Shown here piece after piece: positions 13,054-13,838 of a stretch of DNA of 64,000 bases; position 1 is the stretch's first letter, and the number at the start of each line of letters is the position of its first letter. The position numbers and the translations under genes were made by a program. The stretch lies in NCBI RefSeq assembly GCF_030145145.1, contig NZ_JAQYWD010000002.1:1-64000 (forward strand), written 5' to 3'. The notes below the pieces were generated by a model, which was given only the letters and a program-made list of their open reading frames with translations, ran no database searches and had not been told where the DNA came from. The DNA is from Desulfobacula sp. GTDB lineage: Bacteria > Desulfobacterota > Desulfobacteria > Desulfobacterales > Desulfobacteraceae.

Positions 13054-13128
13054 ATTTAATGACAGTTATTGTATATCATTAAATACTTATTAGCCCTCTA
13101 TTGACATTTTGTTTTGCATGACTAACTT
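13054..13128 (+). promoter_or_regulatory. Candidate promoter and dyad for the tandem peptide genes
   Basis: A perfect 9-bp inverted repeat (ATTTAATGA at 13054-13062, TCATTAAAT at 13076-13084, 13-bp spacer) lies just upstream of a TTGACA box at 13101-13106. A weak TAACTT -10 candidate follows 16 bp later. The first peptide start codon is about 50 bp downstream. Confidence 0.45.
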
Positions 13129-13176
13129 TTTGTTAAATGAAATACAAAGTTAATCCAAATACGAAGAGGTGCCAAA

Positions 13177-13320
13177 ATGACAAATCCTATAATTGAAAAT
13201 TATATAGAAAGTGACAATGAGAGAACTCAGGAACATGTAGACACCCGGCAGAATAATTTTGAATGTGAGAATCCTGATGAACGTCTGGGATGTGATCTCG
13301 GAATCGATGTCGCAGGATGA
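13177..13320 (+). CDS. Small tandem peptide, copy 1 (47 aa, two Cys)
   Basis: A 47-residue reading frame with an AGAGGTG ribosome-binding site 7 bases before its ATG. The N-terminal half is acidic and polar (IENYIESDNE). The C-terminal half carries HVDTR, NFECENPD, RLGCD and ends GIDVAG. The next gene encodes a clear paralogue with the same length, the same C-terminal motifs and both cysteines (positions 30 and 39) conserved. The N-terminal half is more divergent. No family is recognised. Conservation concentrated at the C-terminus plus a charged leader-like N-terminus would fit a modified or secreted peptide precursor, but no modifying enzyme lies next to it. Confidence 0.75.
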   Translation: MTNPIIENYIESDNERTQEHVDTRQNNFECENPDERLGCDLGIDVAG

Positions 13321-13404
13321 GTTACAGTTCTAAATTAGAAGGCAGAGTCTTGGAGAGAAAGAGTTTTAGAAAAAAATTGATATAAAAAATATAGAGGTGA
13401 CAAA

Positions 13405-13548
13405 ATGACTGAAAATAGAATTGAGAGTTACGTTGAAAGTGACGAAGAAAGTAATGAAGGACATGTGGACACCCGAAACAGCAACTTTGAATGTGAGAAT
13501 CCCGACACACACTTGGGGTGTGATCCTGGAATTGATGTGGCTGGATAA
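13405..13548 (+). CDS. Small tandem peptide, copy 2 (47 aa, two Cys)
   Basis: Paralogue of the preceding gene: 47 residues, AGAGGTG site before the ATG, motifs HVDTR, NFECENPD, HLGCD and terminal GIDVAG retained, cysteines at 30 and 39. Differences between copies are mostly in residues 2-20 and at third codon positions (for example GTA/GTG, CGG/CGA, CCT/CCC, GGA/GGG), which is what selection on the protein would leave. It is followed by a terminator. The spacer between copies (13321-13404) contains no other start with a ribosome-binding site. Function unknown. Confidence 0.78.
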   Translation: MTENRIESYVESDEESNEGHVDTRNSNFECENPDTHLGCDPGIDVAG

Positions 13549-13573
13549 CATACAGTTCGGATGAAAATTTAAA

Positions 13574-13604
13574 GCAGAGCCTCTTTGAGGTTCTGCCATT
13601 TTTT
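13574..13604 (+). terminator. Rho-independent terminator after the tandem peptides
   Basis: A 10-bp stem with one G-U pair (GCAGAGCCTC/GAGGTTCTGC, TTT loop) followed by CATTTTTTAT, 25 bp past the second peptide's stop. Confidence 0.8.
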
Positions 13605-13631
13605 ATAAGTGTTTAAAATAAGGAGACCGTC

Positions 13632-13838
13632 ATGAAAGCAACCGAATGTGTCCCTCAGAAGATATCCAAATTTATGCTGGGTTCATTCCTGCTGGCTGCA
13701 GCCTCAGGCCTAATTATTATAGGGATCACCCTGCTACCTGTTTTCGGATTTATACTGGCAGTACCTGTCATAGCACTGGCAATTTATGTTTTCCGGCTTC
13801 ATTTAAGTGACCAGTGTGAGATTGATTTTCCAGAATAA
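13632..13838 (+). CDS. Small membrane protein with two helices
   Basis: 68 aa with an AAGGAG site before the ATG. Residues about 14-35 and 36-55 are hydrophobic and separated by a short P-containing turn, predicting a two-helix hairpin with both ends on the same side. The ends carry single cysteines (TECVPQ and DQCEID). I recognise no family. It follows the peptide pair after their terminator, so it may be separately transcribed or read through. Association with the peptides is only positional. Confidence 0.65.
   Translation: MKATECVPQKISKFMLGSFLLAAASGLIIIGITLLPVFGFILAVPVIALAIYVFRLHLSDQCEIDFPE

Follow-up and report, generated by a model that had tools for sequence, protein, structure and literature searches.

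A tandem pair of 47-residue cysteine microproteins in Desulfobacula belongs to an apparently undescribed family and may be the output of a PAS-GerE stress regulon of Desulfobacterales

Among the described systems, the sigmaE-ChrR operons of Rhodobacter offer one standard against which the target genes considered here can be compared. As far as the available text of two reports goes, sigmaE-ChrR in Rhodobacter and Vibrio and LitR/CarH in Pseudomonas have similar targets, namely an amine-oxidase flavoprotein, a DUF1365-CMAS methyltransferase, DUF2177, MFS_2, photolyase and RudS (PMC11417400, PMC5241685). The same available text places RudS genes often in light-responsive operons (PMC11417400), and includes CFA synthase, photolyase and ChrR in the blue-light response of Vibrio cholerae (PMC5241685). 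The system described here differs in its linked regulator, which belongs neither to the ECF sigma factors nor to the B12-MerR repressors but is a PAS-GerE protein, the dyad lying at about -66; in addition, the regulon contains microproteins of 47 aa and 28–31 aa.

The LuxR/NarL (GerE) factors with a PAS sensor are another related group. The linked regulators share with them the GerE helix-turn-helix, which exceeds the Pfam cut-off in 5/5 proteins (53–60 bits, cut-off 23.5), and PAS_4, which is over its cut-off in 3/5. On the other hand, among the NCBIfam equivalogs displayed none reaches its cut-off for the two linked regulators scanned, and to our knowledge the target set and the site found here are unlike those of the named LuxR/NarL members. 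We have also considered OxyR, whose half-site we take to be ATAGnTnnnAnCTAT and which the dyad of our locus fits closely. But only one such element is present here, and as the linked gene encodes a GerE protein and not a LysR-type regulator, OxyR was set aside as the regulator of the dyad.

The window, i.e., the whole stretch of 64,000 nucleotides of Desulfobacula sp. DNA analysed here, carries two adjacent 47-aa frames on the forward strand, at 13177..13320 (copy 1) and 13405..13548 (copy 2), defined by open reading frame, homologues, alignment and substitution counts. Each follows a ribosome-binding site AGAGGTG read in the sequence (13165..13171 and 13393..13399, forward strand). The original prediction had described these frames from the DNA letters, and all that it named is present: the two copies are 68% identical, with HVDTR, NFECENPD, LGCD, GIDVAG and Cys30/Cys39 common to both. 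Nei-Gojobori counting gives 19 synonymous differences on 27 sites and 20 non-synonymous ones on 114 sites (pS 0.70, pN 0.18). The dN value is 0.20 with dS saturated near 2, and dN is 0.11 in the tail from HVDTR onward, which bears out the predicted bias of the divergence to third codon positions with a kept tail. For the whole family, the median dN/dS is 0.26 over 244 non-saturated pairs. The ratio lies well below 1 and not near it; strong purifying selection acts on both 47-aa frames, and they are real genes. Short frames without a Pfam family might also be chance open frames or belong to an RNA gene. This can practically be dismissed, since the substitution pattern, with dN/dS well below 1 and many synonymous changes, contradicts chance frames; the frames are moreover conserved across the order, and no Rfam family comes near its gathering score at the locus (best E 0.21).

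Relatives of the peptide have indeed been found across Desulfobacterales. The source genome itself has five copies, the tandem pair on contig C29 and singles on C47, C81 and C32 (weakest E 1.7e-12). Of 389 sampled genomes of the order, 98 show a family match at E 1e-3 or better, and in an even draw of the phylum the family appears in 3 of 395 genomes, all from this order and one of them the source genome. Scanning the contigs of named genomes gave 103 family loci, and the best 80 of them, 79 of which are distinct, were used for the neighbourhood analysis. The titles of the kept loci name Desulfospira joergensenii, Desulfosarcina widdelii, D. alkanivorans, Desulfamplus, Desulfoluna and other Desulfobacterales genera, and some read Olavius symbionts or only Deltaproteobacteria.

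At least 106 distinct members have been collected; four rows that lacked a start codon, among which one contig-end copy appeared twice, were left out. His20, Asp22 and Val45 are invariant in all 106. Arg24, Asn27, Cys30, Gly38, Cys39, Gly42, Asp44 and Gly47 are invariant as well, an invariance that is partly built in, since the collecting expression demanded Arg24, both Cys, Gly42, Asp44, Gly47 and nearly Asn27; residue 27 differs in three members outside this expression (from genomes G701, G680 and G691). The microprotein is acidic and hydrophilic, with a median pI of 4.3 and a GRAVY of -1.29. For both window copies, searches of Pfam and NCBIfam return no family at E 10. PHROGs contain no convincing relative (2 of 21 rows reach E 0.0043 at best, without a named function), and the same holds for viral contigs, phages and plasmids, while the best hit in a PDB sequence search has E 0.49. 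In the open-access literature, a scope outside which most subscription papers fall, we recognised no paper on the Cys microprotein family or on the PAS-GerE regulon. Overall, a Cys microprotein family conserved in sulfate-reducing bacteria, with the conserved Cys pair that had been predicted, is apparently undescribed, and its at least 106 distinct small genes have been missed by the annotation libraries searched.

The conserved residues could mean a general metal-buffering or metal-delivery microprotein, in which a His/Cys/Cys/Asp set binds Zn, Cu or Fe and the stress regulon is secondary. The presence of His20 in 106/106 members (both Cys being demanded by the collecting expression) speaks for it, as do the variable Cys spacing (x8 in 98 members, x7 in 5 and x5 in 3) and the other dyads that abut the -35 element upstream of some lineages. 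Nevertheless we consider it doubtful: 105 of the 106 members have only two Cys, no metal transporter was recognised by eye among the recurring neighbours in 79 loci, and AlphaFold2, run with 69 alignment rows, gives no confident fold in its support (pLDDT 67.6, pTM 0.24). In the broader sense of the original prediction, a small metal-binding protein is still a possible reading.

Within the peptide, the C-terminal tail varies less than the N-terminal part (median dN/dS 0.20 and 0.53, respectively). Such a pattern in small, multicopy, tandem genes, together with a SAM methyltransferase of the regulon near the peptide in 4/79 loci, might suit a RiPP precursor whose maturation enzyme belongs to the regulon or is encoded elsewhere. 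But the tail hardly changes over many families of the order, in contrast to diversifying cores; there is no match to an NCBIfam model, and apart from this methyltransferase no recurring dedicated modifying enzyme is encoded with the peptide in the 79 loci, as judged by recurrence and not by enzyme profiles. The RiPP-like precursor that the original prediction had proposed is very unlikely.

Small size and tandem copies would fit an exported signalling peptide too, another of its proposals. In four of the 79 loci (L033, L035, L039 and L044), the array is followed within 73–119 nt by genes for an ABC_tran protein (assigned by Pfam in two of the four), a permease that looks FtsX-like by eye and a lipoprotein-like product, and the ABC gene also follows in G747 and G748. 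This conserved operon speaks for export. Against export, the acidic, hydrophilic peptide has no signal-like hydrophobic segment, and the transporter-adjacent loci are a minority and all apparently close relatives, so that a signalling role is highly improbable.

The core of a conserved dyad, TGACAGTTATTGTATATCA, was found at 13060..13078 (forward strand) by motif search and pattern scan, followed by the -35 element TTGACA at 13101..13106 and, after a 16-nt spacer, the -10 element TAACTT at 13123..13128 (both read on the forward strand). Downstream of copy 2 and before the membrane-protein gene, an intrinsic terminator, GCAGAGCCTC-TTT-GAGGTTCTGC with a T run, occupies 13574..13605 (forward strand; hairpin -15.5 kcal/mol). 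The dyad, TTGACA and the terminator had all been predicted. The common architecture of a dyad TGRTAGKTTTTAMCTAYCA, a fixed distance of 21 nt, the ATTG of the -35 element and a TAACTT-like -10 element, which recurs in the aligned promoters, is found upstream of 65 of the 103 members (out of 106) with sufficient upstream sequence. This count comes from a 40-mer model; a 30-mer palindromic model gives 67 sites, a few of them misplaced. In the window, the dyad-to-ATTG unit spans 13060–13103, and the promoter pattern matches once, with 3 mismatches, where 0.10 matches are expected. Allowing up to 2 mismatches, we have obtained 59 matches in 14 genomes versus 4 for the reversed control, and 33 of the 59 precede family members, as seen by comparing the places. 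The centre of the dyad lies about 66 nt before the expected start, and by its place in the sequence this is the position of an upstream activator. Terminator-like hairpins lie within 100 nt of 50/106 members. GGCAGAG or GCAGAG occurs in the spacers and 5' regions of 12/106 and CTCTGC in the 3' regions of 26/106, and these sequences are taken as remnants of a terminator stem.

Several peptide arrays lie downstream of a gene for a GerE protein that has ~295 aa and a PAS fold, and the loci of this regulator are linked to the site. Sites with up to 3 mismatches were counted if they lay on the strand of the regulator gene and between -40 and +400 nt of its stop codon. Such a site is present at 23 of the 42 best-scoring regulator loci and absent from 19, whereas the site density of 79 other loci predicts ~0.55. 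The partial matches L238–L246 and L251–L253 were left out of this set, though L238 and L239 do carry the site. The genes next to the regulator encode peptides, the methyltransferase of a RudS cluster, or a 64–65-aa MLCS protein. Across the 389 genomes, both the family and the regulator (threshold E 1e-60) are present in 60, the family only in 38, the regulator only in 24 and neither in 267, which gives a Fisher value of 2.8e-25 when the genomes are treated as independent of phylogeny.

The site tends to be lost together with the regulator. With up to 4 mismatches, it is kept in 40/47 regulator-positive versus 4/21 regulator-negative family genomes, leaving out G701, G680 and G691 (outside the collecting expression), G569 (no start codon), G528 (short upstream sequence) and G505 (nothing found in site scoring). 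A looser rule applied to the dropped genomes changes the proportions to 40/48 versus 5/24; G701, in which the regulator is present, has no site, nor do G680 and G691, and the regulator-negative G569 has one. In the taxonomic family of the source organism, the site is kept in 12/12 regulator-positive versus 1/12 regulator-negative genomes scored, or 12/13 versus 1/14 with three dropped genomes added. The sole regulator-negative genome with a site there is G004, whose regulator is in two pieces; over the order, such genomes are G004, G721 (likewise in two pieces), G488, G477 and G569. It is this linkage and this joint loss that suggest the dyad as a putative binding site of the PAS-GerE protein. 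As a separate observation, sites and peptides remain where the regulator gene is in two pieces (G004:C67 and G721:C238) or truncated (G747:C1).

The close linkage could also mean feedback, with the peptide modulating the neighbouring PAS-GerE protein by binding to it, since regulator, site and peptide adjoin in several genomes including the source genome. We regard this as unlikely: many regulator loci have a different gene in the next position, and the peptide is kept without a regulator hit (E 1e-60) in 38 of the 98 family genomes. As most of the regulator-negative genomes scored also have no conserved site (17/21), the peptide does not depend on the PAS-GerE regulator, and its job is wider than this regulator.

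Besides the peptides, the promoter pattern precedes other genes. Of its 26 non-peptide matches, 20 were read, and 14 of these lead to recognisable genes, named from Pfam or NCBIfam matches of the gene or a homologue and in several cases by eye. They are two RND-type efflux operons, an MFS_2 transporter, an sll1863-like relative, a frameshifted family member, a relative of the 68-aa protein described below, an amine oxidase (as second gene), a dihydroorotate-dehydrogenase-like gene with an NmrA/DUF2867-type gene, two methyltransferase-PNPOx-RudS clusters, DUF2177, an M50 peptidase and two 64–65-aa MLCS proteins. Six of the 20 sites lie before photo-oxidative-type genes (the amine oxidase, the two methyltransferase-RudS clusters, DUF2177, MFS_2 and the NmrA/DUF2867 group), 8 lie before other recognisable genes and 6 have no clear target.

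The operons of the source genome also place characteristic photo-oxidative targets under this promoter type. On C32, the peptide lies behind a site with 1 mismatch and is followed by a 199-aa protein and an MFS_2 transporter; the locus is divergent from Amino_oxidase and DUF1365-CMAS genes, and a DNA_photolyase gene is near. On C81, the PAS-GerE regulator gene is followed by a site (0 mismatches) and then by the genes for the peptide, an sll1863-like protein and a PNPOx-like protein; RudS and, by similarity, amine oxidase and DUF1365-CMAS are near. The sll1863-like and PNPOx-like proteins score below the curated cut-offs: the 100-aa protein after the peptide has 33.4 bits (E 3.8e-8) against the sll1863 family stress response protein model (NF052504), just below its cut-off of 35, and the likeness is that of a regulon neighbour and not of the peptide. 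In addition, a UvdE UV-endonuclease gene lies 45–330 nt from the peptide on the other strand in 4/79 loci (by Pfam for two).

Based on the above analyses, the best explanation, to which we give a probability of roughly 0.6, is that the locus is an output of a Desulfobacterales stress regulon under a PAS-GerE (LuxR-type) regulator. The regulon reading is well supported by what the sequences document, namely a gene family with a conserved promoter, the linkage of regulator and site, the target genes and a second, membrane microprotein, and the PAS-GerE protein seems to switch the microproteins on together with genes for protection from photo-oxidative or oxidative damage. DNA binding, activation and signal are steps that we infer. 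The regulator, encoded on contig C81 here, would bind the dyad at about -66 and activate a sigma-70-type promoter, whose output would be the soluble acidic 47-aa Cys2 microproteins; the 68-aa membrane protein would also be made, by terminator read-through or otherwise, and photo-oxidative-type genes would be driven by the same promoter type. The signal may be light, singlet oxygen or another oxidant. Several points count against this explanation: the 38 family genomes without a regulator hit, the 24 genomes with the regulator but without the family, the regulator-negative genomes that have a site, the site missing in G701 despite its regulator, the 19 of 42 regulator loci without a site, the photo-oxidative-type genes behind no more than 6 of the 20 sites read, the weak structure prediction, and the 3 mismatches in the window's own site. 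If it holds, strict anaerobes gain a candidate dedicated regulon for light or oxidative damage with a defined regulator and operator, and with two kinds of tiny protein whose roles are directly testable.

The second kind is a frame of 28–31 aa of the form MIGxxLTxxxLGYFINxC...CK[ILV], located directly after many copies of the peptide. By a rule of hydrophobicity and a Cys pair, 28 of 91 array-terminal copies have it versus 72 of 3000 random positions, though one of the 28 (L111) looks like chance. A stricter rule, whose expression demands the Cys pair, leaves 23 distinct sequences, 20 of which start 17–20 nt after the peptide stop. Over 61 pairs, these sequences have a median dN/dS of 0.35, and 18/23 carry a positive tail behind the helix. 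According to the positive-inside rule, the positive side of a membrane helix faces the cytoplasm; the Cys tail would therefore be on the side where the acidic peptide is expected. The action that we favour, though we would sooner bet against it than for it, is that the Cys pair, His20 and the acidic residues of the 47-aa protein form a thiol or metal site that protects or reports under oxidative stress; the membrane microprotein, through its mostly basic, Cys-bearing tail, would keep this site at the membrane. More speculative is the full picture of a two-microprotein device, in which the acidic Cys2/His protein and the 28–31-aa Cys-pair membrane peptide would make up a membrane-held thiol/metal centre in an undescribed PAS-LuxR photo-oxidative regulon of anaerobic sulfate reducers.

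In the window, the slot of the 28–31-aa microprotein is taken by a two-helix membrane protein of 68 aa with Cys6 and Cys62 (13632..13838, forward strand), as established by family search and locus placement. Its family occurs in 132/389 genomes of the order, and the peptide is beside it in 1/30 loci examined, which is the window only. A site with up to 4 mismatches lies directly before the 68-aa gene in 5/14 regulator-positive genomes and in 1/16 regulator-negative ones. The latter is G764, whose promoter region equals that of the window at 141/168 aligned positions, with only 1 mismatch in the orthologous dyad, and is followed directly by the 68-aa gene, the peptide being absent there. Therefore, either the promoter of the window is older than the peptide pair that separates it from the 68-aa gene, or the pair was lost from G764. 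The original prediction had suggested the 68-aa protein as a partner of the peptides, and with this orthologous promoter it is plausibly part of the same unit. No full-length regulator was found in G764, which counts against the simple picture.

Several variants of the system have been observed. In one clade (L016, L017, L075, L088 and L103), the tails read like xxFDSIGCDxGVDVAG, and the dyad that abuts TTGACA upstream is of another kind (like AAAGTTAGG...AACTTT, with a looser form in L103); therefore another regulator may control this clade. In the Desulfoluna loci L094, L096 and L105, the Cys loop is shortened to C-x5-C with HIDVR, and TTAGGC..GCCTAA-like dyads, imperfect in two of them, lie upstream. 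A second PAS-GerE subtype (L234, L235, L236 and L247–L250) is followed by a 64–65-aa protein starting with MLCS, MICS or MLCT. Between the two genes, the dyad TGACGG...CCGTCA is present in 3/7 and a related form in 3, with none found in L247, and the one MLCS-type protein scanned has no Pfam or NCBIfam match.

A scan with the dyad alone gave several matches in or before unrelated genes, which were left out of the counts. One site (G000:C87:24423-24466, L174), with 2 mismatches, precedes a region without a clear gene and then a strong hairpin; it possibly marks a small RNA or a very short peptide, or is due to chance. Frameshifted or decayed family members occur in L178, L204 and L082 (840-1151). 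The full promoter pattern still precedes the member in L178, and a dyad with one mismatch precedes that in L204.
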